From Hydractinia symbiolongicarpus (Eukaryota > Cnidaria > Hydrozoa > Anthoathecata > Hydractiniidae), in assembly GCF_029227915.1 (NCBI RefSeq), contig NC_079877.1, forward strand, positions 26,499,851 through 26,563,850: a stretch of DNA of 64,000 nt. The letters are read 5' to 3'. Position numbers and translations under genes: made by a program. The notes beneath the pieces were generated by a model. The model saw only the letters and a list, made by a program, of their open reading frames with translations. It did not search any database and was not told where the DNA came from. Numbering within the stretch: the stretch's first letter is position 1; each line of letters starts with the position of its first letter. Shown here one piece after another: positions 576 through 63,669 of the stretch.

Positions 576-599
576 TCTTGTTTAGTATTTTATCTCTAA

Positions 600-720
600 C
601 TTGTAAATAAAATTTAGAAACAGTGTGAACATGCCAACCTGGGCGTTGGCGAAAGCTTGCTGAAAGATATATTTGGATATGTCGTAGATTTTGTCGTTCT
701 TATTTTTTAATATTTTAAAT
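600..720. repeat. Dispersed repeat, copy 1 (partner at 53960-54060)
   Basis: The stretch around tgtgaacatgccaacc and ggcgttggcgaaagcttgct recurs, diverged, at 53983-54050 in the same orientation (tgtgaacatgcggacc ... gagttggcgaaagctta). Copy 1 lies directly upstream of the Penelope-like RT, so it may be the 5' part of that element family. The family is inferred from position only. Confidence 0.6.
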
Positions 721-1892
721 GCTTCATTTTGTCTTCACTCAGGTTTAATCAATGGCATTGCCTCACAAAAATACAAATTAGATTAACATCGAAGACAAAA
801 AATAATGTCTCCAGGAATGTTTTATAAAGAGAGCATGGAAATTGTGGTTATGCTTAGGTTGTATATAAGGTATAAATTAAACAACATAGATTATAACCAT
901 CCCCTTCCTCGAAAATTTAGCTTTCCAAAGGGGATGTTTGTTTTTAGAAATTCCAAAAAAAAGTCTAATTTGTTTATTAGCTATTTATACATTATGTAAT
1001 TACAAAGACTAACTTCAATGATATTTTTAAAGTTGGTGAGGATATTGCAGTGTACTTTCAAGTTTAGGGCCAAAGAACTTGGGAAACGAGGGGAAATAAC
1101 TGACGTTCTCTCCTAAGAACAACCCAAGACCAAAATGGGACTAATTTTTGTAAACTGGTTCAATCCATTCTGTAGCCAGTGTGCTGAGCTGGCTACAGAA
1201 AAGACAATCAGTAAAGTATACAGAGTTGCATCAATTATAGTTTCTTGTAGAGATCTGTTGCAACAAACTGTTATATAACAGAGATTTTGCCATTTCTAAA
1301 ATGTGGGTCATGCAATATACCATAAAAGTTGATATACTGGTTATTAAGGGGTATCAGGTTTAACAGTCAATGTCTTTTTTGTTTCTTGTTCTTGCTTTGT
1401 TGGACCTATGTACTGCTAAGGTCATCTGTCGTCCATTACAAGCTTTTCTAAGAATTAAATCATTAGTTTTATTTCTGATTTTAAATTATTAAAAACACAA
1501 TTGATAAAAAATTAAGTAAGAAGACGCTCAAAGGTTATACAAAACTTAAAATCTTATAAACAATATTTAATTTATTTCACAAAAACGACCCATTAAATAT
1601 GCTTGAGAAGAAGGTATTGGAAGTCAAAGATATGGTACGCCAAGCCTCCAATGTCTGGAGTCTACTCTTTAAATCATCCCTTTTTTAATACTTTAATTTT
1701 TCATAATTTTGATGATTAAGCACCATGTATGCATTGACATACTAATATTGTTTGGGATAAGCTATTTTTTCTGCAATGACTTTTTGTTCTTTATGGGCAT
1801 AAGTTAAAGTTGTATTGAGCGTTTGTACTTTTTATATAATTCCCATAGGTTTAAATTTTCAGAACTGGCAATTTTGGGTATCTTTTCATTAC
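721..1892. other. AT-rich spacer, nothing recognised
   Basis: No ORF with recognisable protein content, no tRNA-like or structured RNA signal seen. A 64-codon ORF at 805-999 has no family resemblance. Confidence 0.5.
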
Positions 1893-3145
1893 TTAGGCGA
1901 CTCCAACTTAATTAGTTGCTCTACGGGCGAAGTCGACAGTAGCTTACGGTCCGTCGGTCGGTGAAATAAAAATAATTTTATTGAGAATGTAATTGTCAAA
2001 ACAACAAAAAAATAATTTATAAAAAATAAAAACGGAGAAGGGTGCTACAACAAGCATATTTTTCTATGTATTTTCGCATCATGTACGCAGTTAATATTTT
2101 TCGTTGCGAAGGAAAAATAATAATAACTTGGTTACTATAAAAAATGTTTGGATAAATTTGTTCTCTTGTTTTAAATTATTAAAATAACTAGCTGTCAAGG
2201 TAAAAAAATTAAATTACTTGCATGCTCAAAAACTTGTTTTTAAAAGTTATGCAGCAAGAATATTTCTCTTGTGCTGTTTCGAAAGTTATACAGAATATAC
2301 TTGTGTTGTTTTGAAAGTTATACAGCAAGTTATATTTGCGCTGTTTCGAAATTTACACAGCAAATGTTAGTGTTCTTTTAATGTTTTTTGTGCAATCTAA
2401 ATTTAAGTGCAGTCTCTTTTTACAGACTATAGTTTAGTTGACAATATTTAAAGTATTACGCAGCATTAAAATTATTCATTTAAAATTTATAATGGAGGAG
2501 GGTGTTACGACAAGCGTATTCTACCTTGTTTTTATTATTTTTCCAGAATAATATCGTCTAAAAGTCTTGCATTAGCGCAATTCAAGCATATATAAATAGC
2601 ATAACGAAGGAGGGTGTTATGACATTAATAATCTGTCTTGTTTTACAATTGTATTATAACTGTTTTAGCAAAAGGCAATATTAGCCAATTTTTGTTATAA
2701 ATCACATAAAAATTTAAACTTTTGTTTAACCACATAACTATTTTTGTGATTACAAAATTAGTGCATCACGCATTTTATTTTAATCGCAACAAATTACCAT
2801 GAACAAAAAATCAACTGCAAGAGGCCTTAACAAAAGTACCGTTATTAATTCACTTTGTTTAGTATAATTGTAGATTGACATTCAACCAACAAAATATGAC
2901 ATCATTGATTATCTTATTGAAGATATTATTTCGGTTTGTCTGTTCAGTATTCATATTACTGGGAAAGTTTATCATTTCTCGAACAGTTTAGTAGGCGACC
3001 TTTCGGGAGATCCTTCCCCCATTATTGGTATCTTCTTAAGCTCGTTTTATTTTTACAAGATGGGATAAGAAAATGTGTTTTCTTTTTTCAAAAAATTAGG
3101 GTCAGTTGGGTCCGTAGAACAACTAATTAAGTTGGAGTTGCCTTA
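1893..3145. mobile_element. Non-autonomous DNA transposon with inverted termini and TTAC target duplication
   Basis: The left end reads TTAGGCGACTCCAACTTAAT and the right end is its near-perfect reverse complement, ending GTTGGAGTTGCCTTA. The inverted homology runs about 33 bp each side with a few mismatches. Both ends are flanked by TTAC (1889-1892 and 3146-3149), read as a 4 bp target duplication. The 1253 bp interior encodes no transposase. It holds diverged internal repeats: a GGAGAAGGGTGCTACAACAA-type block at about 2033, 2493 and 2607, and a roughly 45 bp unit with gctgtttcgaaagttatac repeated at 2260-2370. Superfamily not assigned. It ends 60 bp before the first in-frame ATG of eIF2A, so it sits in that gene's 5' region. 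Confidence 0.75.
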
Positions 3146-3204
3146 TTACCTGTTTAGTTTTACCTTGCGTCTGTATGTATCACAACCCTTAAAAAACACT
3201 AAAT

Positions 3205-6200
3205 ATGATAAAAAAGCCCTTAAAAAGCAAACATTTGGAATATGTATGTGACAAAACATTTCAAAAAAGACTGCCTTTGTTGAAAGAAATCGAACTTAAT
3301 TTTCCCTATAGAAGTAGATGGCTCAACCAAACACAGGGTAAATTTATATCTATATTAATTTTTTTTTTCTACATTTTTAGCTCGTGGTTCATTGGGGATA
3401 AAATTACTGCAAGGCAAAAATGCATTTCAAGAAATTCATGATTTGTACAAGTAAACATCTCTTTTATTTTCAATAAGGATTTGAGTACTGTAATAATTAA
3501 AAAAATTGTATGTATTTTTTTATTTTTTTGGTTTAGTGACGAATCGACATCTTCTAAAATCATGCGGTTTAGTGATGATGGCGCATGCTTTGCATTTGTT
3601 AATGGAAGAGAGTATGCATTTTAAAACAGATAAAAATATATTTAAAATGTGATAATATTTTCTAAATGAGAATAATTGTTTGTTTTTTTAGGTTAAAAGT
3701 TCTGTCTATGGATACAGGAGAGGTGATATATTCTCTCGATAAACAAAAGACCACAGATATCGTCATATCACCAAAAAATACATATATTGCAACATGGGAG
3801 CCTTTTTTTACAACTCCTCAAAACCCACAGGGTTTCAATAACTATGAAATACACAACATAAAGACAAAATGTGTTAAAAAATCTATGATTCATAAAAATA
3901 GAAATACTTGGTGAGTATGTATACTTCATACTATAGAATATATGACATTTTTCTTTGAAAATATTGATAAAATTTAAGAAATATATTGATGAATTGACAG
4001 GCCTCTTGCTAAGAAGCATTTTGAGGGTATAAAACAAGGTATAAATTATTTTTTGATTTCCATTTAATTAATTTTTGATACTTTATGTTAATTTATGAAC
4101 ACACAAATCAACTTTAGGCTCCTAATCACTAATAATGGTCTTAGCTACAAATGAAGAAGCATCACAACAAAATGAAGGAGTATTGAAATAACATTTATGA
4201 AATTTCAGAATCAACATGTTTTAAACATTAGTATTTGTAACTTCACCAGAATTATTTATTGTCCATCATCAATATATTATTATTTTTTTCTAACTAGCAC
4301 AGATAAATTTTCTAGTTACCTATCTATATTATAATGCCTGTATACATCTGTGACACAAAATAGTACCACGAGTAGTGTTACGCTGCAATGCGATATAAAA
4401 AGGACTGGAGAACCCAAGGATTCATCTGCGGCCACTGACCAGTGTATTATCATGCATGTTTTTTTTTATTTTTGTTATCAGGGCACCAGTATGGAGTAAA
4501 GATGAGAAAATCTGTGGTAGATGTGTTAATAATGAAGTTCAATTTTATGAGGATGGAGAGTTTCGTAAGAAGTCATTTCTACTTCTTAATGCATAAGAAA
4601 AAGATAATATTTCTTATTAGTAATAAACTTCTGCTGCTTGTTATTTGTATTTGTTTGTATAAAAACAATGGTCTGAAACTCAGGCCTGTAAATTTGTGGA
4701 GTCTGAGGTAACGATCCATCGTTACTGTGATTTAAAGCTGACTGAAACGATCAAAACGTTTTGTCGTTTCCGCGAAGTAGACCTTGTGGAAATGATACAT
4801 AACGATTAGCTTTAAACCTATAAATAAGTGGAGAACCATTTCATAATGGCCCTAATTAGTGACAAGACCTACTCCATAGTAGTAAAATATTATAATATAA
4901 ATATAGATTATAACATGAAATTATTATAATTTGAAATATTGTCTAAGGGAAATGATTCATCGTTACCGTCTTTATTGATTCGCGGAAACAAAACGAACAT
5001 TTCCACCAAATTTCCAGGCATGGAACTGTTAAATATCCCTCGCTAACTTGTAAACCTGAGCAACTTTCCGTTAAAAAGTCACTTCCATCAAACCATTCAC
5101 TAATGCCACCTACACTTTAAATACTAAAATGACAATGTTTTTCAGAAAAACTATCCTGAGGATATAGAAACAATTGCAATATTTGCATTCACTTTATATT
5201 AGAAAAAATGTTGCAGTTGAATTAGGGAGGAATTGATTGGCTGTGATTAGTAAATCTCCTCTGATGCAAGCTATATTTTAGGACTCATTTTTTGCACACT
5301 CATTTTTACGCATTTGTGTCACGCAAAACATTTTGCACGAATATGAATAGCTACATGCAAAAAATATACTTGTTTTAAGAAGAAAACAATACACCTGTAC
5401 CTAAACACGTCTAAAACTTTTTTCATTATTCTTTAGAGAAAGCTGCAAGAAAACTTTATCTTCAAGGAGTCAGTGGATGTGCGATAGCACCATGTTTGTC
5501 GCCATATATGATAGCTGTTTACATCATGGGTAAAAAGGTTAGTTTACAAATCGTAATTCTTATTTTTTTTTTGGGTTTGTTCTAAAATATCAAAATCTTC
5601 TTGTGAAAAATTGCACTACATCAACACATCAACTTTTTAACTCTGCAGGGATCACCATCATCAGTCAGATTGTTTCAATATCCAAATCTTGGAGATGGTC
5701 AAGCAATAACAAATAGAAGTTTTTTTAAGGCTGACAAGGTAGACATGATTTGGAATAAAAAAGGTAAGTACAGCACACTGTTTTTTTTATAAAACCTGCA
5801 TTAAAGTAGATTTAAAAAAATCTTAAGTAGACCTTTACCCCTTGTTGACCATTATAAAATTTGTTAGAAAAACAGATGAAATCAATCATTTCAGAAAATT
5901 GAATAACAAATACTTATTTAACTTAAAACTGATTTAGTATTAACGGGTTGCTCTCATAATGTTGACTTTTTAATTTGAAAAGGCAGTGAAATGAGTTTTC
6001 AGTTCGTCCTGCAAACTGATTTGCTCTCATTTATAAATACTCTTATTATATTTTCCATAAAAAACGTTGCAACTGAGAGGGTTGAAGTACAAGTGCATTT
6101 TTAACATAAGTAAAGCTAACCTTCACTATGGTCTTGTTCAATTAGCAAATCTTCATAAAAAATCCTTTTTACTCAAATTTATCATGTTTTTAAATTTTTG

Positions 6201-9200
6201 ATTGCTGGAATCTTCAATATCAAAACAGATTTGAAGTGGTACTGGGAAATAAACCTTTTTAGTTTACTTATTGATAAAGATTTAATTTGAAAACAAGGAA
6301 ATTCTTGCAAAGTTGCTACGCATGGTAGATCTTTTAGATTTTTTCTGCACTCAATCTTAATTAATACAGGTTATTACTGGTTTGGAAATTAATTAACATC
6401 TTTTAATTGTGAGATTATTTGTTTAGGAAATGCATTATTAATTCTTGTAAGTGCTGAAGTCGACACAACAGGCTCATCTTATTATGGTGAACAAACACTT
6501 CATTTGATGACCACCAATGGAAACAGCAATATAGTGCAATTTGGTAAGACCACTGATCATTGAATTGTAGAGGAGTTGTCATCGCCACATTAGTTATAAA
6601 TCAGTTGGTATGGAAGCCCCATTTTTTGTTTCGAATCTCTCGCAGATGGTTTATTTGGAAAATTTATCTTTAGAAAAGAAAGGTCCAATATATTCTGTGG
6701 ATTGGAATCCAAACTCTTCACAATTTTGTGTTGTATATGGTTGTATCCTTTCGCATTTTTAGCTGATCTATATATCATGTTTCTTTGTTTAGAAATATTA
6801 TTATACGTTATTACCCTTAATATAGAGCTATAGTTATGCCAGCTAAAGCAACTCTTTTTAATTTAAAATCCGAATCAGTTTTTGATTTCGGAACTGGTCC
6901 AAGAAATATTTGTAAATACAATCAACATGGGAATATTTTATGTTTGGCGGGATTTGGGAATCTACCTGGAATTATGGAGATGTGGAATGTAGACGGCAAA
7001 AAACTGATTGGTAAGCCACAAGCACGAGATACTACTTTCTTTCAGTGGTGTACGGATGGTCAACACCTTGTTACTGCTACCTGTGCACCAAGGCTGCGAG
7101 TGTCCAATGGGTAGGAGGCTTTTCTTATTTGTACAGAAACCACCTGTAGTTTTCGGGACTTTTTTTAAAAAAATTTTTATGTAGTGGAAATGCATATTTT
7201 ATGCCATTGAAATGATGAAGTTGTAGATCGTGCCTTTACGTTTATCTTAAGGTACAAAATATGGCATTATTCTGGTAAAGTAATACACAGCTTTGATGTT
7301 CCCAAAAATACCGAATTATGGGAGGTAAGTTTTTTTTTCTAATTTAAATACTAAATGTTTGCCTAACTGTCCTTCATTCTGAAGGAATAAAAATTTATAT
7401 ACGTAAAACATGTAAAAATTAAATAATGATAATGAATGAATGGCTTACCCACATAATGATCTGAAAATCGGAAAAACTCATGGAATTTGAAAGGGTTTAC
7501 CTTGCCATAGAACAGCGTTTGTTTATTAAAAATTTAAAGCCTCTTGTAATTAAAAAGAAGCAACAAATGATAAAGCACATGGAATTTGATTTTTTGCACT
7601 AACAAATACTGGAAGGTTCTACAATTTTACCATATTTTTATGTTCGGAAAATTAGCACCGAAAAAAGAATTTCTTAATTACCATATTTTCTTTTCTTTTT
7701 AAAGTAAAAGTGTATCTGTAATGTTGTTTGGTGGTAGTCAAATATGGAGAAACATGTCCTGGATTGTGCTGTAATTTATGTTTCAAATTTTTGAAAATTT
7801 TTGAAAGGGTTTACCTTGCCATAGAACAGCGTTTGTTTATTAAAAATTTAAAGCCTCTTGTAATTAAAAAGAAGCAACAAATGATAAAGCACATGGAATT
7901 TGATTTTTTGCACTAACAAATACTGGAAGGTTCTACAATTTTACCATATTTTTATGTTCGGAAAATTAGCACCGAAAAAAGAATTTCTTATTTACCATAT
8001 TTTCTTTTCTTTTTAAAGTAAAAGTGTATCTGTAATGTTGTTTGGTGGTAGTCAAATATGGAGAAACATGTCCTGGATTGTGCTGTAATTTATGTTTCAA
8101 ATTTTGACGGTCTTAATTGGCAATTTCATTAAGGTTTTTTAGACCGGTTGGCTTTAAAGAGGTAAGATTAAGAGTGTCATATAGGAGACCTTGAAGAAAT
8201 GGTTTGTTTATGAAAAACTCTGTGACCTGATTTCAAGTTCCCTTCCCTCCTACAAACATGCTTAATGAACGCGCATATTTTTTTCTTTAGACGATATGGC
8301 AAACAGTCCCAGATGGAACTTTTCCAGTACCTCGCATCGTAGCATCTGTTGCCACACAAGAAGGTAGACTTTTACTGAAATATAAACTGTCTATTTTGAA
8401 TTATCGAAGTAACTTTAAAGGGTATATTGTTATCTTTTGTAGTGAAAAAAGAAGCGTACCGCCCTCCTTCAGCAAGAGGGACAGCAGTGAAAAAGATAGT
8501 TATTGTAAGTTCAAATGATGCTTTACCTAAATTAAAAAACGATACCCTACAAAGGCTTAAAAGTCTGGGACACTATTTGAGAAATAATAATAATACTTTA
8601 AGAGCATAGGATTTTAAGAGTTTTGGATTTTTCATGTCTTACCCATAACTGCTAAACACTGTTCACTTACTTAGCGACATTTCAGATGGAATGTGGCAAA
8701 AGGCCTCTCAAAATCAACAATTTTAGCATGATTCTTCAAGAGTTTACTCGATAAAAATTTTTTGTCTAGTAACCAGAAGAAACTCATAGGCTTCGATTCT
8801 AGAAAACGTTTTTACTTTCTCAATGACTTTAATAGTGAATAAATATCCAATAAAAGATCTATGGAATCTATCAGTCAGTCAGTCGCGAATTTTAATGACG
8901 GAAAATTTTCTTACATTCCTTTATTCACGAAGGTTTAAGCTTCGCACATCGCTATATCTTCGAATTCGCCAAGTAATATTACAAAAAGCGAAAGTTTATG
9001 TCATGTTGATTTTAGCATGAAAATGAACTTCCAGAAAATCAACGCAACCAAGAAAACATGTCTGCTGCAGCTTTAAAAAATAAAAAGAAACGAGAAGCGA
9101 AAGCAAAATCAAAGAAAGAAGTAAGTTTGATCATTGAAAAAAATATTTTATGATGTAGATTCAAAAATTATTGTACGGGCCAATTATGAAGCGGTATTGC

Positions 9201-14960: not shown

Positions 14961-17255
14961 ATGGATGTTAACTGTGTAAAAACAATAAATGTGCTGGATT
15001 TTGGGAAATGTATAGTGTGTCAGAAAGATACATCAAAAAAGGTACCGCCTTACTTAAACATTTTTTCCCATTCCTGTTCTGAGTTCTGAGAGTTTTGAGA
15101 GAAAGATTTTTGTTTGATACTTTGACCAAGATGTCGTATTTTGTTTAGAATGTTGGCAACCCAAAAGAGCAGTATTTGAAAAAGTTATTATCATGTCTGG
15201 AGGAAAGAGTTAGTTGTGGTGATTCGAAGTATCTAGATTGTTGGGAAAAACTGAAGTCATATGATATTGTACAGCTTGTTGAAGGAAAGTCTTCATACCA
15301 TTCTGATTGTTACAAAATGGCCACAAATAAAACAGAGATAGACAGGTTAAAGAAACGGCCAGTATCAAAAGAGTCTTCGGACAGTTTTAGCCCATCATTT
15401 GTTGTATCTGTGAAACAAAATGAAAAAAAAACATTGCGCTCAAGTGGAATTATGTTTCAAAACACCTTTGCATTATTTGTCAAGAAAGGGGAGGAAAGAT
15501 ATATAAAGTTATGTCTAAGACGGCAGCAACAAAGATGCTGGAGAGTTTCGAAGCTTATAGCAAATAAATCATTTTTCATCCGTATGAACAATATTCCTAA
15601 CGCTGATGCTATAGCAAATGATGCCCAATATCATTTAGCATGTTGGGTGAAGGTTCCGAGAGAGGCTTTAGCATTACATCAAGACATATCACAGCTACAA
15701 AATATGGAAGATACAGACCGCGCACTTGCAGATGTTGAAATAATTAACATAATCAAACATTTATTGGGGGAATCACACGACAACGTAATAAGTATGAACG
15801 ATGTTAACTATACATACAACAACTTAATGGGAAACTCCGAAAGCAACCAAATCAATTACAAGCGATATTTAAAGCACTTGTTAACAGAAAATATTGAGGA
15901 CATAGTGTTTTCAAGACCTCCATCAAGAACAGAATCAGAAAGAATTTGTACAACCCAGACGCAATCAAAAGCAATCGAGTTGAACTTTCAAAACCCCGTA
16001 GATGATGTCGCTACAATATTCGAGTGCGCAAAACTAGTTAATTTTTTAGGATTTCGCATTAGCTTTTACATAACGTGTACTACAAATTTCAAGAGGATGT
16101 GATGAAATACGATTGGTATTTGATCGCTATATAGAAAACTCCTTGAAAGCACGGACAAGAAAGCATCGTACATCTGGTAATGAAGTTCGATACAAAGTAT
16201 CAGACAACACCAATATTTCATCCATTAGTCTCAAGCAATTTCTTTCCCACATTGATACAAAGCAAGCTTTAACCATCTACCTGGCAAAGAAAGTGATGGA
16301 GGCTCTTTCATCATTGCATATTCGGTATATAGTGACTTATGATACTAAAATGGAATCAAATTTTGTTGATTGCAGAATACACGACCACGAAGAAGCTGAC
16401 ACAGCACTTATATATAATGCTATGGATGTTGCACAACAATCTCCTTTCACCAGTTGTATTGTTTACTCTCCGGATACTGACGTGTTTCTACTGCTAATTT
16501 ACTACTATGAGATGTTACCAATAAATACCATTTTTAGAACAGGGCGAGGTTCTACTCTACGTGATATTGATATTCGTAATTGCTTTGAACCCCTTGGTGC
16601 AGTACACGCGAAAGCTATTCTTGGTTTTCATACGTTCACAGGGTGTGACCAAACTGGGCGTTTCAACAAGAAATCGAAGTCTGCTTGGCTGAAGATTCTT
16701 TTACAGGCAGATAATGAGGTGGTTCTGGCATTATCGACACTTGGAAGTACTGTCGAACTTCCTAATCTGGAAACACTGGAAAGCTTAGAACGTTTCGTGA
16801 TTTCAATGTATAAGGGGAATAAATGTCCTGCAGACGTGGTATCATTATCTCAATTGCGTTGGCATTTATTCTCCAAATTCCAGTGTGATGCTGATATGTT
16901 GCCACCAACATTAGCTGCATTGAAGTACAAAATATTCAGGTGTCACTTCATTTCAATGGTTTTACGAAGCTCGCATATCCTCATTCAACAACTTCCGAAT
17001 GCAGTCAATTATGGTTGGGATACAGATGAAGTCGGTAACTTATCCCCCATAATGACTGATGAACTTCCTGCACCGTTGGCACTCATCGAGTTAAGTTCTT
17101 GTAATTGCAAAACAAGTTGCATATCCAACCGATGTAAATGCCGTAAAAATGGTTCTTTGTGCACTGACATGTGTAAATGTACGACGTGTCAAAACAGTGG
17201 TGGCGCAAGCGATGAATCCGAGTCAGATGAATATAGTTCTAGTGATGATGAGTGA
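14961..17255 (+). pseudogene. Academ-like transposase, internally deleted
   Basis: Exon 1 is 14961-15041 (MDVNCVKTINVLDFGKCIVC start, CxxC pair). Exon 2 starts at 15149 after tttgtttag and is in frame through 16102, with a second Cys/His pair (SSYHSDCYKM). After a stop the frame resumes at 16113-17255. There the protein shows HEEADTALIYNAMDVA, the acidic strand VYSPDTDVFLLL and the loop FTGCDQTGRFNKKSKSAWL. These look like the acidic residues and helix-hairpin of XPG/FEN/PIN nucleases. The C-terminus is a Cys cluster (CNCKTSC ... CKCRKNG ... CKCTTC) followed by an acidic tail. Relatives of this family are about 1000 residues or more; here the two halves total about 720, so several hundred residues are missing at the 16040-16115 junction. 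The copy is therefore probably non-autonomous. Confidence 0.8.
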
Positions 17256-21849: not shown

Positions 21850-23165
21850 AAGTGGCTAGCCCAGAAAATCACAAAAACCTATAGTTAGTGGATTGTTTCC
21901 ACTGGGGGCCACTAGAACAAAAAAGAAACAAAAAATGATAAACCTTAGACTGCCTCAGCTCAATCAAACATAGTAACATTTATAATCTGTGAAAATTGAA
22001 AAGAAAAAGAATAAAAAACAAAAATTAAAAAATTAAAAAGTGATCTCCATAAGAATTTGCCAAATACATTAGAGATGGAAGTCTTAAACGAAAGCAGACT
22101 TCCATCACAGGTCACTTGGTCTGGAAGATTATTCCACACTTTTGCAGCTCTAAATGGGAAGGCTTTTTTGCCAAATTCCGTGTTGACCAAGGGAAGTGTG
22201 AACCTGTTTTTTGAAGCTCCTCTTGTTTGATGATTATGACAGTTTTTTGTCAAAAGGAATTTTGAGCGCATGTAATCAGGAGCAATGTGATTCATGGCTT
22301 TGAAAACTAATATGGCATCGTTTTGATGAGTAAATTATTCATTGAATATTCCCTCTCTTTCCCAAGAAAGGTACGGACACATTTTAATCGTTTTTCTAGT
22401 TTTCCCAATCTACCTTGGGTGGCACAAGCCCATGCAGAGGAGCAGTAGTTGAAATATGGCATGACAAGTGCATTAATTAAAAGGTTTTTTGTGTGAGGTG
22501 TTAAACAGGATGCAATGGTTCTAATTTTAGAATATTTAATTAGTATTTTTCTATTTATGTCATTAATGTGCTTTTCCCATTGCATTTTTTGATCAAATGT
22601 TACCCCAAGATATTTAACTTTTTCGCTCCTCTTCAAAGGAATACCCATATAGTTGATAGTTTTGTTCTCAACTTTTTTTAACTGGCTGTGGTTGCCGAAA
22701 AAGATTGTTTCAGTTTTGTCCGTATTAATAGTCATTTTGTTATTATTCAGCCAGAGGTCGACTTGCGAAAGTTCTAACTCGACCTGGGAGACAAGGGTAT
22801 CCAAGTTTTTATGAGACGAAATAATTATTGTATCATCCGCATATAGATGGTGGTAGTTTGAGTTGATGACAGATTTTAAGTCATCAATATACAAAAGAAA
22901 GAGCAGGGGCCCCAACACAGATCCCTGCGGCACCCCAAAAGCGTCTTCATGAAGCAGATCTGATCCTGTGTCGTTTACAAGAGTCAGCTGCATTCGGTCC
23001 GTTAAGTAGGACTCGAACCAGTCAAAGGCAGCATCTGTGATGCCAAAACACCATAGTTTTTTTAACAAAATTTTATGATCAACAGTGTCAAAAGCTTTTT
23101 TAAGGTCAATGAGCACAGCACAAACAAAGTTATGTTGGTTGAGCTCAGTAAGAATAAAATCATTT
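21850..23165 (-). pseudogene. CR1-like LINE, 5'-truncated, reverse transcriptase with one frameshift
   Basis: On the minus strand an RT begins mid-domain at about 23165 (FILTELNQHNFVCAVLIDLK) and continues KAFDTVDHKILLKKL, FGVPQGSVLGPLLFLLYIDD, HHLYADDTIIIS with the catalytic YADD, and KVKYLGVTFDQKMQW. Near 22315 a one-base shift turns the expected TDAILVFKAMNHIAPDYM into a stop. After the shift the frame continues 22295-21960 with the usual C-terminal block FPFRAAKVWNNLPDQV. Upstream of 23165 homology ends abruptly, as in 5'-truncated target-primed insertions. The 3' end runs to the (AAT)n tract. Nearly intact otherwise, so relatively young. Confidence 0.88.
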
Positions 23166-34700: not shown

Positions 34701-37700
34701 ACTTATAATCGCCATAAAAAGTTGCAAGGAGAGATTGAAGTCAACTCAACGTAATAACAGTGTAAGAAATTGGTTATTCGCTGTAACAATTACTACCAAT
34801 CTTGCACTCAAAACGCAATTAAAAGTTTGAAAGCAAGTCAGGTCGTCTAATACTATTCTAAAATGTAAGAGTGTGAGTGTTTTACCATTATGTTTTTCTG
34901 ATTTAGTTCGTAGTATTTTTATCAGGACCGGTGCTGGTCACCGAACCTCAACTTTTCCTTTCCACGGAACATGCGGCATAGCCTTCCCTCCATTGCGTTT
35001 AGCGTAGAGTGTCTATTAAGTAAGAGCTATAAATACACCAGTAGTCGGCTCAAAACACATTCTGTGATTAAGAAGATCCGAAAACTATGATAAGAAGATC
35101 AAAGAATTAAGATTAAGAAGATCCAAGAAAGAATTAGTCTGTCTGCCCCATCACTTTTTCTAATTCAGTAATTTTGACGTTGGTTGGTTTCTTGACGTTG
35201 GAAAAATTAAATTTCACGTTAGCAATTTTTATTTTGTTTTGCGATTGTGAGAGCTCCCACACGAGCAGTAGTTAAATGTCATAAGAAAATACGAGCTTTT
35301 GTAGGTTTAAGTTACATTTAATTTAAAACCAACGTCAGAAGAAAAATGCCGATGTTAATCATGAATTTTTGCTGGCACAGCATGACGTGAAATAGAAGTC
35401 CTGTTAAATATATTCCCACTGTGTCTGGTTCTCACTGATTGACCCGATATTTGTTTCCGTTTTTTGATTCGTGCTGTGAGCAAGTGACGCATACAGAGCA
35501 TGTTTGCATTAAATTTATTTGAAATTTTAGAAACTGCGAATACTTTCCAGTGTATTTTTGATATTGGGATTTTCAGTGTTGATTTCTACGGTAACGTGAC
35601 TTTGCTTTTGACCAGGTACATAAATTGCTGAAAAATGCTTAAAAATAATAGAAAAGTTGCTTAACAGTTGCTTGGAAGAAGATAAAACAGTTTAAAATAT
35701 TTTTTAAACCACTGCGAAATTTAAATTTAAACCCAAGTTTTTTATCGATGTTAAATCTTCACCCCACGCAGCAAGCAATTTTTGGTTTCAAAGCAGTGAA
35801 TTTCCAGATAAATTCGGATACAAATAAAACTTTATTTTAAAACGTGACTATATTTTTAAAGAACGAAATCTAAAACTAACATGTGCGAGAATATAAATAC
35901 ATAACAAGAGCAGCTAGAGGACTGGGGAAGATATAAACAAATATGGTAACCACATCCTCCCCCCTAGCTGCCTAAATATCTTATATATAACAAATACGTG
36001 ATAAACTATAAAAGTGTCAACAAATGTATAACATAATGTCTTTATGTTTCTTATTTAAATGTTCGTTATGATATCATTTTCGTCAATGAATGTGATATTT
36101 ACTTTTTCTTTCTTTTCAGCTTCGTCTTTCGCTAATTCAACAGGATAAAGTTTGTTTATCGGTCTTCTTATTGTATGTGTGTTTCCATTGAGAACATATC
36201 TAACGACAGCTCCCCGTTTCTTGCCGTCACGTGATGGTACGAACTCTTCAACGACTCCCATTTTCCAATTTTGTCTCGGTTGCTTTGCTTCCTCAATTAA
36301 AACAACATCGTTGATTCGAATAGAAGTTTCACCACGTGATTTGCCAACTCTGTGATATTCGCGTAACTCTGTCAAATATTCGCATTTCCATCGATTCCAA
36401 TAGTGGTTTATGATACGTTGCAAATGATCATAACGTTGACACAAATCTTTTTCATTTTCATCGCTATCAATATGTGAGGCTTCCAAATTAATTTTTCTCC
36501 CAAATAATAAATGGTTAGGTGTTAATGGTTGCTCACCTATGTTTTCATACAAAAATGTCAGCGGTCTGTTATTAATAACTGCTTGAATTTCAGCTAGAAC
36601 AGTCAGTAGTTCTTCATACGATAATCTGGTATTGTGTAAAGTCTTCTTTAAACAACGTTTAACGGATCTTACAAGTCTTTCGAACATCCCTCCCCACCAA
36701 GGAGCGGCTTCTAAATTAAAATGCCATTTAATTCCTCGATTTGACGAAAATCGTTGCGTATCTTCGGCAATGAATTGACTACCATTATCAGAAATAATTT
36801 CAGAGGGAATACCTCGTTCACTGAAAAATCGGCGAAGACTACGAATACAACCTGAAGACGAAGCATCAGGAACTAAATCCAAATGTAAAGCTCTGGTACT
36901 GGTACAAGTAAATAAGAACACCCAAGCTTTATACATACTTCCACCATGATAAACATTTCGAACATATAAAGGTCCGGCATAGTCGAGACCAGTATGTTTA
37001 AACGGATGATGATTGGATAGTCGTGATTTCGGTAATGCTGGTGAAACAGGATACGCATAAGATTTCCCTTCATAATAACGACATAAATAGCACTGTCGGA
37101 TTAACTGCTTTATGTAATTTCGTGCTTTTGGAATCCAAAATTTCGATCTGATGGCATTAAGTGTTTCTTTCAAACCATTATGCAAAACTTGAACATGATA
37201 ATGCAAAATGACTAGCCTAGTTAAAGGGTTTTTTTTCGGTAAAAATATCGGAAACTTAGTATCAAAGTCTAAAGGAGCGTTTTCTAAGCGTCCCTTACAA
37301 CGAATAATACCATCAATATTTTGAAATCGTAAATCTTTTTGTAACTGCTTGTAACTCGGAAGTTGAATTATATCTTTTTGCGCATATTTAATCCACAGTT
37401 TTTTTGCATGCAACTGCTCGTCCTTTGTAACAAATGTATGTAAAACCAATTCTTCCTTACGACGCTTTTTTCTGAGGTTTCCAACAAATCGTAAAACCAA
37501 TGCGGTAATTCGCAATAAACGTGTGTAATTAGAATATCGTGCAATGTTCATAAAATTTAAATCAATTTCTTCTTCGGTGCTCTCCTCTGATTCGTCGTTA
37601 CCAACAATTAAACAAGTCGAATCATCAACCTTGAAATTACTGAAATTAAAACTCGAAGCTGAGATGTTAGTGTCGCGCAAGAAATCAGGTCCTGAAAACC

Positions 37701-40700
37701 ATAAGTTATTGTTCACCAACTCAGATACCAAACAACCTCTCGACAAAATATCCGCAGGATTTGCCTTTGACTCCACATGAAACCAACTGTCCGGTGAAAC
37801 TAAATCACGAATGATACCAACTCGCCGTTCGACAACCACCTCATACTTCTTATTAACATTTTTAATCCAATATAAAACAATAGACGAATCAATCCAACAC
37901 CGTGTCACAGAAATATCATAAACCAAACTCAACTCATCACGAACATACTTCACCAGCTTCGCTAACATCACTGCACCATACAGCTCCAATCGAGGTATCG
38001 TGACCGGTTTAATTGGCGCGATTCTCGACTTAGACGTCACTAACTTCGTAAAAAAACTACCATCAGCATGTTCGAACCTCAAATAAACACACGCACCGTA
38101 ACCTTTCAAAGAAGCATCAGAAAAACCATGCAATTGTACATCAACAATATTCCCGCCATCGTAACATCGTGGTACATTCAAATGTGAAAAACTTTTAAAA
38201 TCATTGTACGTAACTCGCCACTCGTCCAAAACCTGTCCACTCAACTCGATGTCCCAACCAATTTTACCTACACAGGTTTTTTGAAACAATGTTTTTAATC
38301 GCATAACAATAGGGTTAATAAGACCAAGAGGGTCATAAATGGAAGCGGTAAATTTAATCAATTGTCGTTTTGTCGGTATGTCCTTCGCTAACGATAAAAT
38401 GTCGTCGAATGTGAATAAGAGCGAATCTTTCTTTTTATCCCACAAAACACCAAGAACTTTGGTAACATGTCCGGTATGAGCAACATGGGGTTTGGTAACT
38501 AATTGTTCCAACTCTTCGGAATTCGAATGAAATTTATGCAGATTGAAATTTGCTTCAGCGAGACGTTGTTTACATTTCTGGTAAAAATCATGTGCTGCAT
38601 TAACAGTAGCGCCACCGGAAGTTAGATCATCAACGTGAAGTGAACTCAATAACTTCTGTACAAACAAAGGATCAACATGATTAAACGATTCAGCATGCTT
38701 AATAAGAGTGGCACTAAGGAGGAATGGTGACGAACTTACACCAAACAATACTCTACTCAATCTATAAATACCAATTTCTGCAGTTTCAATGTTTTGTTCT
38801 GATAAATTATGTAAATCTTTAAACCAAATAAAACGAACAAAATCACGATCGGTTGGATGTAAACTAATTTGTAAAAATGCCTTCTCGATATCAGCAATGA
38901 AGGCTACTTTGTGAGATCGAAAGCGCAATAAAACGTTATATAAAGGCTCCGTTAAAGATGGTCCAGCATACAAACAATCATTTAATGAAGACAGTCCCAC
39001 CGATTTTGAACTTGCATCGAATACCATGCGTACTTTGGTGCTTGGTTTATCATCACGAATGACTGGTCGGTGTGGTAAATAGTGAACTTGTCTTTTGGTA
39101 CAATCGTCGTTGGTAACTCTTTCAATGATACCTTGTTCAAGCTGTTCTTTGAGGATACTGTTATAATTACGCAATAATTCGGGATTATTTTTCAATTTAT
39201 GCCTCAATGATTCAAGTCTCTTTGAAGAAACACAATAATTATCAGGGAGCACATCGTGATCATCCTTAAAAGGCAGCCGCACCTCGTAACGTTTAGTCTG
39301 CGCGCTGAATTTAACATTTTCACAAAAATTTTCAACAGCTGGTTGTTCCTCGATACCAGCGTTTTCGAAGGACCAAAACTTTTCCAACTGATTATCCAAC
39401 TTATCTTCGACAAACTCAGCCCCAATCTTCAATACGTTTGCTACCAAGACTGCACTTCTACTACCTTCACTCGACCCTATGCGTCCACTTACAATGTATC
39501 CGACCTTTGAATTTAAAGCAACTGGCCCATCCTCACCCCGAACTATACCACCATCAAAAAATTTCCAATAATTATCAGCACCCAACAAGACATCCACCTT
39601 CAAATCTCTATTATTACAGTTACTGTCAGCTAAACGTAAGTCTTTCAAGTGTTTATACTTCAAACAATCGTTAAAATTCTGTCCTGTTAAAGGATGACAA
39701 ATATTTTTCACATAACAATCAACGTTGATTTTATCTCCATCTAAACCGATCACTGAAAACTGCACCCTATCTAAAGTTTCTTTGAACGAATGTTTACCAA
39801 AAATACGGATGCAAATCTCACGCTTACCAACAACCTTTAATTGCAATTTTTCACATAACTCGGGCGATATGTAACTTAATTGGGAACAGTTATCGAACAA
39901 AATTCTCGTGTTCTCAATTTTTGAAGGATCAGTAGTATTAACAACTTTAACTTTAGCGGTTTGCAACATAACGGAACTCGGAATGTCGAGCGAATTTGAA
40001 CTTGTAACCAACGAAGTGGCACCAGCAACATTTTCTGGTTTTTCTTGTTCGGTTCCATCCTTATCTCTACGACCTTGGTCAACGTCCCTTTTCTTATCAC
40101 AAATAGCAACATGGTGTCTACCCGAACACTTTAAACAACTAATCTTAGAATAACAAGACTTGGCTAAATGTCCACCTTTCAAACAAACAAAACATCTCTT
40201 CTTGTCACGTAACACGTTTTTCCTTGCGTCGAAATTAGTGATTATTCGGCATTGCTGTGATTTATGCGATTTGTCACAAAATATGCATCTATAATTATTC
40301 TGATTATTCTGATGATTGCGATAATTATGCTGATTGTTCTGATACTGATTGTGCGGAAGATCACGGTTCGATTGATGTGAATAGTGAACTGGTAATGCCG
40401 ATGATGAAAACGGGTTGTTATCGTGTGGCTGTTGTAAAGAATATGCAGATTTCTCACGAACTTCGATCTCCGATTTTAACGCTCTTAAAACTAACTTCAT
40501 ATCCCAGCAATCTTTGTCGTTAAATTGACGACTAATAATTAAATTAAGCTCTTCTGGAAGTTTCGACATAAGTACCGGTATTAATAGCGGACCATAATTT
40601 TCAGACGTGACATCTAAATTTTCCAGACTTCTCACTTGTGTCTCAACGTTGTCAAATACATTACGCAATGTTTCTATGTTAGTTAAGTTATTCGCCTGTT

Positions 40701-43700
40701 CAAGTTTCAGTAATTTTTTCATATGTGCTGAAATAAGTAACTGTTTATTATTATATCTCTCTTTCAGTAAATCAACGACGGTTTTATAATTTTCATTGCT
40801 AAGTCTAAACCCAGCGATACAACTTGCAGCGGGACCTTCTACTAGATTTTTTAAATAGGTCATTTTTTGAACGTCGGAAATATCGTCATTAGTGTGTACG
40901 GCACATTCAAAGCTATCCCAGAAAGTCGACCAGTTTTCCGGATGCCCATCAAAGGGCTGTAAATGTAAGCGAGGCAATTTTATTAGTTTACTGTGGCTGA
41001 AAGTGCTTCCTGCTTCTGAAAAATCCTTTTTGGCTGATCGTTTTTCTAAAAATGATTCAAACAGACGAAGTTTATCCTTTAACATCATCATTTCCTCCGT
41101 ACTAGAATCTTCTTCCTTGTCGATATCATCCTGCTCTGTCAAGCAATCCATAATCGACTCGTTTAGTTCAGCAACTTTCGCTATTTTTTCCATCAAAGTA
41201 TCACGGATCGACTCAATTTGACGAACATCTGCAACATTATCGGTATATGACGAAATAATTGTCTCTCCCCTTGTAATTAATTTGTTTGCAGTTCTAACAA
41301 CAGACTTTCTAACTTTGTTGTACTTCGCGAAATCACCCATTTTTAAAATCAAAACAACACCAAACTTTAAACCAAACCAATAAAAATAAGACAACTAAAA
41401 ACCACTAAATAAAACCATAGATACATAAGCAAAGTATCTCTCCGAGGGCTCCAATGAATTTCCAGATAAATTCGGATACAAATAAAACTTTATTTTAAAA
41501 CGTGACTATATTTTTAAAGAACGAAATCTAAAACTAACATGTGCGAGAATATAAATACATAATAAGAGCAGCTAGAGGACTGGGGAAGATATAAACAAAT
41601 ATGGTAACCACAAGCAGGACATGATATATGTTTCCTGAATGTATATAAGCGATTTTCTTAGGCGTTGCTTCTTATTTGGTACGGCGTACTTTTGCTTGTA
41701 TTTTGATATTGGCAAATTTCAGTAGAGTTTCTTATAAACCGGTTGCTTGTGCTGGAATATTTATAATGTCCAAGAGCTATCCAGTTGAGTTTTCAATAAG
41801 TGAAGCACCGAAGCTATATAACTTGATGGATTGCAATGCGAGAGGTAAGAAGGTATTTAATAAGGTTAACCCTGGAACTCTTGGAAGAGTCGTAAAATTT
41901 TGTGCTAAACGAGCACCCTGTGTAGTAAGAATCATGTGTTGGTAAGGATAAAGAAACCCACAGGATTACGCCCATCGCTACTCGCGGCTACCATTTTGGC
42001 TCACAGGCAAACGGACGTACAGTGAGCATTGCAGAAACCTTTTAACCCTAAACCTGTATTTCTTTTTAAGTGTTTCTGCTTATTATTTTGTTTCTTCAGT
42101 TACAGACAGAGCCTGCACAAACTGATCAACTCCAGTTACAGATACAGCAACTAAATGCACAACTTCACGAGGTGCGTGCTAAGAACAGTTATAATGGTTG
42201 TTTTCTTTGTTCTACTTTTGACAATTATTGGTGACGATTACTCTCTTGTCTTTCACATAATACAGTACACTCCGGTTATTCGAAGCTCTACAGGGGATAG
42301 AAATTTAATTCGAATAACTGAATTTTCGAATAAGTGAATCCTTTATAACAAGCGAAAGCTCTCGGAACTAATTTAATAGTCTGCTGGGCGTATTTTGGAG
42401 ATATTACCGCGATATTAAAAGTAAAAAAATCCAAGCCATGCTTTGTTTATGTTCAGTTAAAACGTTTGTGGAACACATTGCCGGGCCATCGCATTGTAAC
42501 ACCAATCTTTTTATTTTTAGGCTGTTGCGTACATTAAACAGCAAAACTCTCAACTTCTGCAAGCTCAGCAATACAGAACTGACGTCAGCAATTATTTTCA
42601 AGCAGAAGAACATCGTATGAGACAGATAGCATATTGCACGAATGATTTCGGAAAGATATGTAAGGAAGCATCTGGACAAATGAGAAAACTCAAGTACGCT
42701 ATTTTGTTTGTAGTAATATGTGATTTTTGTTTACTAACGCTGATACACGATTCAATTAATCAATATTGATTTCATAAAATCATAGTCAATCGATATAGAA
42801 AAGGTTGTGGAGCTGGGGATAAGATCCCCTAGGTTCGCAAACAAAAATAGCCATTTTTAGTCAAAACATAATAAAAACCAAATCCTTATGTGTTTCATTT
42901 TGTCTAATCAAACGGTTTTAACTTAGCAGACACGGTAAGGGCAGGGAAAGCAGAAAACTGTAAGGCAAAATAGAAGAGGATCCAGCAAGCAAGGTAGGCA
43001 GGGCAAGAAAGGCAACAATACCAACATTATTTTCTTGAAAATTAATTTATAAGAAATCTTAAACTGAAGTGGAATTTTTATTTTGTTCTGATTAGTGAGG
43101 ACATAACCTTGTTCTTATTTATAGAATGTTTGTCTTTGATTCTCTAAATTTAAAATCATATCGACACTTGACAGGTGATACACGTGAATATGTTCGAAAA
43201 AATGTAATCAGAGAGTGAAGATTCCAAAACAAGCGCTATTTGTGTGAAAAAAATGGATAATAAGTAATCATAGGGTTTTGACAAATTTTCCTAATTAGAA
43301 TTTCTACTCGATGTATAAACTGAGAGTCTTCAACGTTTATATTTGCTTATTTTCGCGCCATTTGGTTCTCAATGCACTATGGAAATTTTTTTTTAAATAA
43401 GCTAGAGTTTCTAGAGTTTCTTTTATAAGAATATACTCTATAAGAATATTTGAGATGAAATCAAACAAAAAGTTAAGAATATCCGAAGAATATGCTCATC
43501 TTGAAATTGCGTGAATCCTATTCTTTGTTAACTCGTATAAACTTATATCCAATTACTGATGTAAAATATCTTTTCTCACGTTTTATTTGACTTTCAGATA
43601 GAAAACTATATTTTGTATGGAAGCTATTCTATACAAAATCTAGTTGTCTGTCTGTCAGTTAAATTAGGGTGTTCAAACAACCTGGTGATTTTTACATCAG

Positions 43701-54436: not shown

Positions 54437-54729
54437 TTTATACCTAGCTAGCTATGGTGTTCAAAACTTCCTATCTTATATAATTTTTACTGACAAATCC
54501 AAATACACCACTCATTAGTCTGATCCTATGTACGCATACCTTGTAATTAACCTAAAATCTATAGAGCTAGCTAATCAGATATAAAAATGCAAATGGAGTT
54601 AAATAGGCAGAGTGCGATGATATGACAGGCAGAACGTGATGACGTCCCACACTAACAGCTTTCATTATGAACTCATGTAGCAATATCTTGAAAATAATTC
54701 TGCATCTTCCACGATGGTTCTCTTTTTAA

Positions 54730-55430
54730 AGGGAAACAAGAAGCCCTGGGGGCTCTAAGAATTTCCGCGCGCTACCAAATTATTTGATGAAAACCTGCTA
54801 ATTCGTTGTGTTATTGTGCCAAACATTCGAAGGGGTTTGGTGCATGAACCTCTGAAGATAAAGCACACCAGTGACATTATATCTTACAACAAACGCAAAC
54901 AAAACGAAACGTGTCATAGTAAACTCACATTTTAAAAGAAATTGCTAACAAAAAATACAGCCTATCATTCATGGTTGAAAGTCTTGCGATTGAAACGTTT
55001 ATGGTCTTAAACGGCATTAGTTGACAAAAAATCAAAATTTTGATGTGACCATCATTTTCAGCATACTTTTTTTATTAACTGTGTCAATTTTTGTCGAAAA
55101 TAAAGCAGTTTTAATTTTTAGATAAATTTTGACCTGAAATGACATTTAGGTGACAAAAAATCAAACTTTTGTACCATCAACATTTTCAGCATACTTTATT
55201 TGTGCCAAATTTTGTCGAAAACAAATACCAATTTTGGCCTGAAGCGTCAATACTGGACTTCCCAGTAGTTAAGGAGCTTGGGTACAAAGCTTACATCTGT
55301 GACAGACCAACGTGAAATCCCAGGGTCGATTTTTTCTCAAAAAATGCTCCGAAAGAAAAAAACGACGGTTTTAAAGAATTTCCTACGCCTTCGGGCGCGG
55401 AAATTCAACTAAGGTCAAAAAAAAATGTTG
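54730..55430 (+). repeat. Left inverted arm of the TTAA element
   Basis: Inverted partner of about 57130-57945. Shared blocks include ccaaacattcgaag, ctgaagataaagcac and cgaaacgtgtcatagtaaac. Confidence 0.88.
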
Positions 55431-55599
55431 TTAAAAAAAATTAAGAACGTTGTATAACATCTAAATAAACCATTGAAAAAAAATTAACTCTTAATTTTCA
55501 TTATTTAGGCTGTTTTAGCCCATTAAAGTTCTAAGGTTTTCTTAAATTAACCGTGTACTCCATTCACGGTTCCTCGTGAACCATACAGAATTATGACGT

Positions 55600-56430
55600 A
55601 TGAGCCGCGAGACTCAAAATCACTTAGACATGGATAGCAGCGAAGAAAGTAGTTGTGCTAGTGAACATAGCGAAGTATATAGTTCTGAAACAGATGAAAG
55701 TATTTGCAAAGGGTGTTATGATAACGAACCTGAATATACTGAAAGTCAGTTGAAAAACATTTGTTCATCAAAAACTGCGAATGATATTTCAGACGACGAC
55801 GAAGATGAGGATTTAGACTCAAGCAGGTTAGAAAACTTACATTGGTGTAAGTGTAAAAAATGTGATATACACGAGTTAATGACTGTTGAAGAATGCAAGT
55901 GTTGTTTGGAGTTTACAACTTTACTGGGAGAAAAGCTGGAAGAGAATACATGTATTACCTTGCATAAAGATTTTAATATTCTTTGTTTAAATCGCACCGT
56001 ATTAGAGACAGCAAGCATTAGACATCGCAGATATCAAAATAATTTCAAGGATATAAAATCTTTTCAAAACAAGTAAGCTTATTATTCTACCTTTCAAAAC
56101 AAATATAAAATATTACTTCATATGCGAAAAAAAAATGCGTTCTTTATCTACATAAAAGTTCGTTTACTGAATGTGAGTCAAAGAATATTTAAAAATATAT
56201 ATACAACATTTTGTAAGGCCTAGGTTCCACAACAACAAAACATATTATATTCTTTTTAGATAACTACGCTTTCAGCATACAGACAATATACAGCTTGGGT
56301 GCATTACTATGAAACACTGGGAAAAGGATGTGGAGTTGTTATACCGGCATGCGTTGTGAAAAAAATTCGTGAAAGTTTCCCAGAAAAAGATGGAAAATAT
56401 ACAGAAAATATACAAGCCAAATTTCCTTGT
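55600..56430 (+). CDS. P2X7 'ballast' zinc-domain protein encoded inside a transposon
   Basis: Exon 1 (55600-56072, donor gtaagc) opens with an acidic, Ser-rich tail (DMDSSEESSCASEHSEVYSS; DDDEDEDLDSS). The domain then begins: HWCKCKKCDI, TVEECKCCLEF, NTCITLHKDFNILCLNRTVL. Further open sequence from about 56260 gives AYRQYTAWVHYYETLGKG, GVVIPACVVKKIRESFPEKD then GKYTENI. This order (WCxCxxC, CxCC, CIT, YRxY, PxCxxxxIRxxFPxxxGxY) is the cytoplasmic ballast domain of the P2X7 receptor, a zinc- and guanine-nucleotide-binding module. No P2X channel part is present. Joining 56072 to the acceptor at 56259 is out of frame by my count, so an indel or an unseen splice site is involved. After YTENI the frame runs on into antisense of the decayed transposase. 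Domain identity is firm; expression unknown. Confidence 0.82.
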
Positions 56431-56459
56431 TCTTATAAAAAAAAGTGTATAACAAACAA

Positions 56460-56836
56460 ATCAAATCTACTTAGAAAATCGTTTTACTTTTTTATTTTTT
56501 TCAAGTATACTCAATTTTTCTGGACGATCTGTATACGCAATATTCCTTGGAGTGTCAAATCTGCCTTCCATATTTTCTACTTTCTTGTAGATGTTTTGGC
56601 CATCTAGTTTTCGTTGCACTACCTCCATAAGCAACTTTTCAATAAAATCATGAGATTTTGCTTCCATGACTGGCTTCGCAATCCACTCCTTTGAATTTAC
56701 TTGATAAATATCGCCATCTCTTCTCGCCCAAAGCGCCGCAACCACTTCTCTCCTTAGTAATAACAGCCTGCTTTCTGTCTACGTTACAGTTGTGATCGAG
56801 AATAGCTAAATTTATCCGCGAGGCCATCACGTTCAA
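56460..56836 (-). pseudogene. Decayed C-terminus of a transposase-like protein, convergent with the ballast gene
   Basis: On the minus strand 56836-56648 reads MASRINLAILDHNCNVDRKQ then AVITKE. A shifted frame, 56745-56467, reads NSKEWIAKPVMEAKSHDFIE then KLLMEVVQRKLDG. The LAxLDHNxNxxRxQA and WxxKPxxExKxxDF pattern recalls the C-terminal region of transposon-encoded proteins common in cnidarian genomes (from memory, not searched). Only about 300 bp separate it from the right arm, so the N-terminal catalytic part is gone. The element copy is thus non-autonomous. Confidence 0.5.
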
Positions 56837-57129
56837 TTCAAATTCAAATTCAAAAGAGTAGTAAAGACAAAATGTACAATTATAGTTAAGAAGTAAAATT
56901 CATCTTTTATGTCTTCATACATCAAATCAGGCGAACCTTATGGTATGGTTTCACTTACTCACTCGCGGATCATACGTCATTGCTCTCCATCGTAGAGTTT
57001 TTTTATGTACTCTAACGGAGATGTAAATAATAACCTTTTTACACTAAAATCCTCATAAAAATACATTTTTTTTGAAAAAAAATTTAAGGTATCTTTTTTA
57101 AACAGTATAATAAACGTTTTTATGAAAAA

Positions 57130-57945
57130 AAAATTTTTGACCTTAGTTTCCCTTTAAGGAGGAAATTCTTTAAAACCGTTGTTTTTTTCTTTCGGGGCAT
57201 TTTTTGAGAAAAAAATCGACCCTGGGATTTCACGTTCATCTGAGAGGAGGATAGTATTGGTATCTGACTAACTAACTATCCCTGTCCCAAATGGTCAATT
57301 GCAACGCCACAGATTTAAACTTCGTACCCAAGCTCCCTAAGTACGGGGAAGTCATCTAAATAACGTTTCAGGCCAAAATTTGGCACAGTTAACAAAAAAT
57401 TTTGATTTTTGTCACCTAAATGTCATTTTAGGCCAAAATTGGTCCAAAAATTAAAACTACTTCATTTTTAAAAAAAATTGGCAAAGTTAACAAAAAAAGT
57501 ATGCTGAACATAATGGTGACATCAAAATTTTGATTTTTGTCACCTAAATGCCATTTTAGGCCGGAATTGGTCCAAAAATTAAAACTACTTTATTTTCGAC
57601 AAAAATCGGCACAGTTAATAAAAAAAGTATGCTGAAAATGATGGGTACATCAAAATTTTGATTTTTTGTCAACTAAATGCCGTTTAAGACCATAAACCTT
57701 TCAATCGCAAGACTTTCAACCATAAATGATAGGCTGTATTTTTTGTTAGCAATTTCTTTTAAAACGTGAGTTTATTATGACACGTTTCGTTTTGTTTGCG
57801 TTTGTTTGTGCTTTATCTTCAGAGCTTCATGCACCAAAACTCTTCGAATGTTTGGCATGATAACAGAACAAATTAGCAGGTTGTCATCAAATATTTTGGT
57901 AGCGAGCGGAAATTCTTAGAGCCCCCAGGGCTTCTTGTTACTTTT
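57130..57945 (-). repeat. Right inverted arm of the TTAA element
   Basis: Carries about 2.5 tandem copies of a roughly 120 bp unit (tttgtcacctaaatgccatt ... aaaaaaagtatgctgaa), more than the left arm. Confidence 0.88.
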
Positions 57946-58024
57946 TTAATCAACCTAAATATTGATTTAACAGTTCCATAAATGAATAAATGAATTTTCT
58001 AATCACTAATTCATCAAGTTTTGA

Positions 58025-63180: not shown

Positions 63181-63580
63181 CATTTTCAGGAACTACACGC
63201 CCTTCCATATATCCTGTGTACCCCGTCCGGCTCTGGTTAAGCATCACGAATTTTTGTCACTGCACATGACGGGATGACCCTTCGCACAGATTTGCCAAGT
63301 CTGTTGTGAACCCACCACGTGAACTGTCGGTAAGCAGCATAGCAATATGTTCTAAAAGAAAAATGTTAACCTTAAATATCAAATTTATGTTCTTATAACC
63401 CATATTTCTATAAACAGCGTGTTTTGACTAGAACAACATCTACTTACTTATTGGGAACGTCATTTCTTGGAGGAAGATATGACGATTCTCTTTCATACAT
63501 TCCAACCAAAGCAGTCCAGAGATTTCCTTTCCTTAAAACAATCGGCTTGAAATCTTCGTGATTGACTATACAGTTTATTT
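63180..63580 (-). pseudogene. Second P2X7-ballast-domain gene, decayed
   Basis: Two minus-strand exons join in frame: 63580-63448 (NCIVNHEDFKPIVLRKGNLW then TALVGMYERESSYLPPRNDV) with donor gtaagt, and from 63351 after ttcttttag ([20 protein letters not shown] then [17 protein letters not shown]). The CI..H..F, AYRQF..WV, IPSCAV.KIR signature is the ballast domain again. A TAA at 63239-63237 replaces the expected aromatic codon after RDA. A one-base shift then separates PEPDG from YTGYMEGRVVPENELTW, so the C-terminus is broken twice. The upstream part, with the WCxC cluster, is absent before the pogo-like terminus at 63670. Sequence divergence from the 55600 copy shows a different subfamily. 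Confidence 0.85.
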
Positions 63581-63669
63581 CTAAAGAATATATTTTTAAT
63601 AACTTAATAATCAGCATATAATGTTTCGTATATCCCGCTAAAAAGTACACACCTTGTAGGTTATATATA

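Follow-up and report, generated by a model that had tools for sequence, protein, structure and literature searches.

Introduction

Passages of Kojima and Bao (2022, PMC9587614) identify the ballast domain as KolX, a protein of the Kol0 lineage of Kolobok transposons, and trace P2X7 to a fusion between KolX and a P2X4-like gene. The same source reports part of a KolX-like protein in a few piggyBac families, gives 5′-RR as the start of Kolobok termini, and describes KolobokP, in which long terminal direct repeats accompany a His-Me nuclease. The link between the ballast domain and TTAA-class transposons is thus already known, having been published in 2022. Passages of Rump et al. (2020, PMC7016195) describe the ballast domain across animals, and no word beginning with "transpos" occurs in the main text of that paper. 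Besides PMC9587614, the literature, as far as its accessible portions go, connects KolX or P2X7 with Kolobok in single mentions in a review, and a literature search for P2RX7_C by that name together with transposition returned no paper.

Here we describe a ballast-domain locus in a 64,000-nucleotide stretch of the Hydractinia symbiolongicarpus genome (hereafter, the window). We put at roughly 95% the probability that the ballast protein is KolX, an accessory gene product of a Kol0-type Kolobok cut-and-paste transposon, and that a short, non-autonomous form derived from this transposon lies in the window, nested in a palindromic repeat.

Results

Layout of the locus

The locus consists of an inner TTAA transposon of 1.75 kb (55407–57157), which bears the ballast gene and is nested within inverted arms of 0.7 kb. 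Its parts are given below with reference to L042, a full-length relative elsewhere in the genome; the splice sites of KolX in the window were inferred from the sequence, without a transcript.

54730–55406, + strand: left arm of the outer (host) palindromic element, starting AGGGAAACAAGAAGCCC and adjoining a TTAA at 54726–54729
55407–57157, + strand: inner Kolobok-type element with the ballast gene, non-autonomous; left boundary from 29 copies, right boundary from 17
55407–55421, + strand: left terminal inverted repeat, truncated (AACTAAGGTCAAAAA)
55600–56072, + strand: exon 1 of the ballast gene (KolX), running from the frame's first ATG up to a GT donor
56073–56259, + strand: KolX intron of 187 bp, GT...AG, with stop codons between the two open frames
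56260–56403, + strand: KolX exon 2 (AYRQYTAW, VIPACVVKKIRESFP); in the window copy its frame does not continue that of exon 1
56467–56845, − strand: C-terminal remnant of a Kolobok transposase in a broken frame; its DNA matches the last part of the 618-aa L042 frame at 98.9%
56845–56856, no strand: junction left by an internal deletion; about 2.4 kb of L042 (1245–3669) is absent
57134–57153, − strand: right terminal inverted repeat (AGGGAAACTAAGGTCAAAAA on the − strand)
57158–57945, − strand: right arm of the outer element, followed by TTAA at 57946–57949; its final bases are unlike the left end

Elsewhere in the window, a BEL/Pao retrotransposon on the − strand (36055–41394) encodes 1779 aa in a single open frame, with peptidase A17 and integrase domains and a reverse transcriptase match slightly under the cut-off, and a 285-aa reverse transcriptase fragment lies on the − strand at 22307–23164. 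Two overlapping open frames occupy 15149–17255 on the + strand, the second ending in a cysteine-rich motif that weakly resembles Tesmin CXC, below the cut-off; in locus L001, the ballast ORF is preceded upstream by a stretch of similar appearance, also rich in cysteines.

Boundaries of the inner element

A search of the window's own 481-Mb assembly with positions 55597–56660 gave 53 matches (40 of 95 candidates scored), after which 30 loci were fetched, one of them (L009) being the window itself. In all 29 other copies the match to the window begins exactly at 55407, the right ends fall within a few bases of 57157, and no match among the fetched loci enters the arms. L010, on contig C13, is 99.66% identical to the window over 55407–57157, has TTAA on both sides and lacks the arms. 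The ends of the family read TTAA-AGGGAAACTAAGGTC...GACCTTAGTTTCCCT-TTAA: left ends are TTAAAGGGA (TTAA-AGGGA) in 28 of the 29 fetched copies, L036 being the exception, and right ends are CCCTTTAA in 16 of the 17 copies with that end in view, the exception being L031. When AGGGAAACTAAGG ends are told apart by 15 nt of flank, 52 of 53 are preceded by TTAA, and 38 matches to the right end of the family occur in the genome.

Identity to the window is 95–99.7% in the main pieces of 26 of the 29 inner copies and 88–93% in L036, L037 and L038, with two further genome matches to 55597–56660 at 74 and 79%. Flanks differ between copies apart from L017/L018, L037/L038 and L028/L029/L032, whose common flanks make them look like segmental duplicates rather than separate insertions. 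The only empty-site test made, with the joined flanks of L029, found no empty site among the fetched loci. In L041, a tandem array of units of about 203 bp (1–5492) adjoins the KolX part (5488–6619) of a Kolobok copy whose right end is out of view.

The window copy keeps its right TTAA (57154–57157), and its left end lacks TTAAAGGGA, so that the insertion is not clean; 9 bp of the left end would have been lost at or after insertion.

The outer palindrome

The original prediction took the whole 3.2-kb unit, from TTAA to TTAA, as one transposon with the ballast gene as its cargo or a working part. Inverted arms of about 0.7–0.8 kb are indeed present and 88% identical (584 of 664 gap-free aligned positions), and the structure is symmetric, with a TTAA at 54726–54729 and another at 57946–57949 and a left outer end that starts AGGGAAAC, as the inner element does. 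These arms, however, do not bound the ballast unit. They are absent from all 29 other fetched ballast copies, whose boundaries at 55407 and about 57157 are sharp, and they differ from one another at 12% of aligned positions, against the 95–99.7% identity of most inner copies. We therefore regard an arm-bounded transposon as extremely improbable, and the arms as ends of the ballast element are ruled out.

Since the ballast unit recurs elsewhere without the arms, it is nested in them, and because every other copy starts at 55407 and L010 has no arms, this comparison of copies assigns the arms to another element, which would have received the Kolobok insertion at a TTAA within its palindromic repeat. 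The palindrome is probably older than the insertion, because its arms differ by 12% and yet 26 of 29 inner copies are so similar to the window. A hairpin, CGCC-TTCG-GGCG, flanked by GAATTTCC and GGAAATTC at 55385–55406, adjoins the left junction and may mark where the outer palindrome was originally centred.

The left end of the outer element reads TTAA-AGGGAAAC, the first eight bases being those of the inner family, and TTAA is found at the other end too, as would be expected of an old non-autonomous Kolobok-type element that later received a second Kolobok. We give this an even chance, because the right outer end (AAAAGTAAC) does not match the left, TTAA is common (692 occurrences in the 64-kb window), and neither arm found a second copy at E up to 1e-3 among the 72 other fetched loci, some of them mutually overlapping.

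A full-length relative and further families

L042 (C8:2413500–2419300, the place of L011) is a full-length relative of 4,177 bp, counting both TTAA, with 24 identical bases at its ends (TTAA plus 20). In the parts common to L042 and the window, identity is 98.9% and 99.0%. The two end regions of L042 each match a separate part of the window element, and a self-comparison restricted to opposite strands recovers just the 24-bp inverted ends. One strand carries a two-exon ballast gene and the other a THAP frame and an open transposase frame of 618 aa, in tail-to-tail order. Both genes lie between the same 24-bp ends; among the 71 of 418 candidates scored, L042 alone spans all 618 residues. The THAP domain reaches 2.8e-13 in Pfam, scored on the L040 copy, and the THAP and DDE frames of L042 would be spliced into one protein.

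Read by eye, the 618-aa frame contains GDGR, TDRN, DPWH, a Cys/His finger and HTGSLE in that order, in keeping with the Kolobok signature as given in the relevant passages of PMC9587614. As protein, the transposase remnant of the window matches the distant L005 transposase weakly (E 0.061), and it is therefore identified by its DNA match to L042. The window copy could have been mobilised in trans by an L042-like transposase.

The same tail-to-tail order recurs in a second family, represented by L006 and by L005, of which L044 is a longer stretch. L044 has ends TTAA-AGGAGTGG and shares with L042, again by eye, GDGR, TDR, DPWH/DIWH, the Cys/His finger and HTGxLE; transposases of the two families are about 34% identical. 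On the L005 transposase, Pfam found no transposase domain above cut-off, a weak MULE match (E 0.13) and no match to the piggyBac transposase domain. In L001–L004, a third and more diverged family, tblastn places ballast and transposase in the same tail-to-tail order.

Genome-scale pairing of ballast domain and transposase

Among 465 candidate ballast matches in the 481-Mb genome, 150 were scored, and 54 of these have a transposase found by either of two queries within 3 kb, in convergent (tail-to-tail) orientation in 53 cases. In 300 trials of random placement, on contigs truncated at their last listed hit, the number of pairs within 3 kb averaged 0.34 and never exceeded 4, its highest value. 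The count drew on all 107 rows of the first transposase query and 28 of the 83 rows of the second, the other 55, by inspection, overlapping or adjoining rows already used. Counted from the transposase side, 53 of 98 clusters have a ballast match within 3 kb and 45 do not. The figure of 54 is a low count, because the diverged L001–L004 transposase was missed by the first transposase query and was found beside the ballast ORF by tblastn.

These results support the view that the ballast domain in this genome is often part of a TTAA-class transposon, beside a transposase. That part of the original prediction stands, with L042 as a full element, although the idea had already been published. The abundance of the domain in the genome can fairly be inferred to stem from transposition.

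Of the 150 scored ballast matches, 96 have no listed transposase as close as 3 kb, which would suit the alternative that the domain is otherwise a cellular gene family, one member of which was captured by chance by a mobile element. We consider this very unlikely: two families whose transposases are only about 34% identical, and a third besides, show the same tail-to-tail arrangement, transposase queries miss diverged families such as L001–L004, and KolX in Kol0 has previously been reported in the passages of PMC9587614 on which we draw.

State of the KolX gene

The ballast motifs of the window fall in two open frames, 55597–56076 and 56260–56607. WCKCKKC, CKCC and CITLH belong to exon 1, and against Pfam P2RX7_C (cut-off 23.5) the downstream piece reaches 32.9 bits, the upstream piece falling short of the cut-off with 15.6 bits. 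The domain is above cut-off on L006, L001 and exon 2 of the window; solved P2X7 chains give a match at 1e-9 with the ballast ORF of L006, and Pfam found no P2X channel domain on the two ballast-motif frames of the window.

An ORF with the complete ballast order had been described here. The motifs are present, but in two pieces separated by a GT...AG intron, and the spliced window copy meets a stop at the exon junction after 158 aa; a single continuous ballast ORF is ruled out, the two exons lying in different frames. The 3′ end of exon 2 is also gone, through a deletion of about 102 bp at 56404/56414 that the window copy has in common with L010, L011 and L012. Splicing keeps the reading frame in L011, L014, L015, L021 and L024 (..SFQNKQLRFSAYRQYTAW.., K being replaced by R in L024), and no stop interrupts it up to and including SFPE. 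Thus 5 of 30 loci carry a spliced KolX frame that is open; 26 of the 30 were scored, no acceptor having been found in two and no donor in two.

At 63222–63600 on the − strand lies a second ballast-domain fragment with a stop, in which, judged by eye, the intron sits before AYRQ, at the same place as in KolX of 55600–56403 and apparently in the same phase.

Many family copies retain the KolX half without most of the transposase, in a sample biased by its KolX query. Such copies suggest that KolX might act apart from the transposase, with short KolX-bearing derivatives serving as mobile helpers or regulators. The low number of open KolX frames and the loss of the KolX C-terminal part in one sub-group of copies weaken this idea, which we hold to be quite unlikely, and maintenance of KolX by selection in the short copies is unsupported, given an open frame in 5 of 30. 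On our preferred reading of KolX as an accessory gene of the transposon, its putative role would be to serve transposition.

Discussion

This survey provides an independent genome-scale check of the published claim that the P2X7 ballast domain is a transposon protein. Tail-to-tail order in 53 of 54 paired loci, together with a full-length element whose transposase frame is open, makes it possible to test what KolX does in transposition. The nesting of one element in another is a caution that long inverted arms are not to be taken as transposon ends without other copies.

The closest described system is Kolobok Kol0, which, in the passages of PMC9587614 available to us, has a TTAA target, AG...CT ends, a DDE transposase that has DxxH and a finger preceding its last E, and a second gene with the P2X7 ballast domain. 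The family found here fits a Kol0-type Kolobok, as judged from its sequence. It shows the TTAA target site duplication, of which the window copy retains the right TTAA only, and termini of the form 5′-RR / YY-3′ (AGGGAAAC...GTTTCCCT). The transposase signature can be read by eye in L042 and L044, the window copy having a C-terminal remnant only, and a second gene corresponding by sequence to KolX runs convergently with the transposase. Compared with Kol0, the window copy is shortened by deletion and its KolX is broken, and KolX of its family has two exons.

With the ballast domain of P2X7 and Nanor, as described in passages of PMC7016195, the window family has in common conserved cysteines, the C-terminal motif and the 1e-9 match of L006; unlike these, it lacks the channel part, is transposon-encoded and has an intron before AYRQ. 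PiggyBac shares the TTAA target, whereas AG...CT ends and the Kolobok transposase signature characterise the elements here. KolobokP is likewise a Kolobok transposon and has long terminal direct repeats; the long arms at this locus run in inverted orientation and are part of another element.
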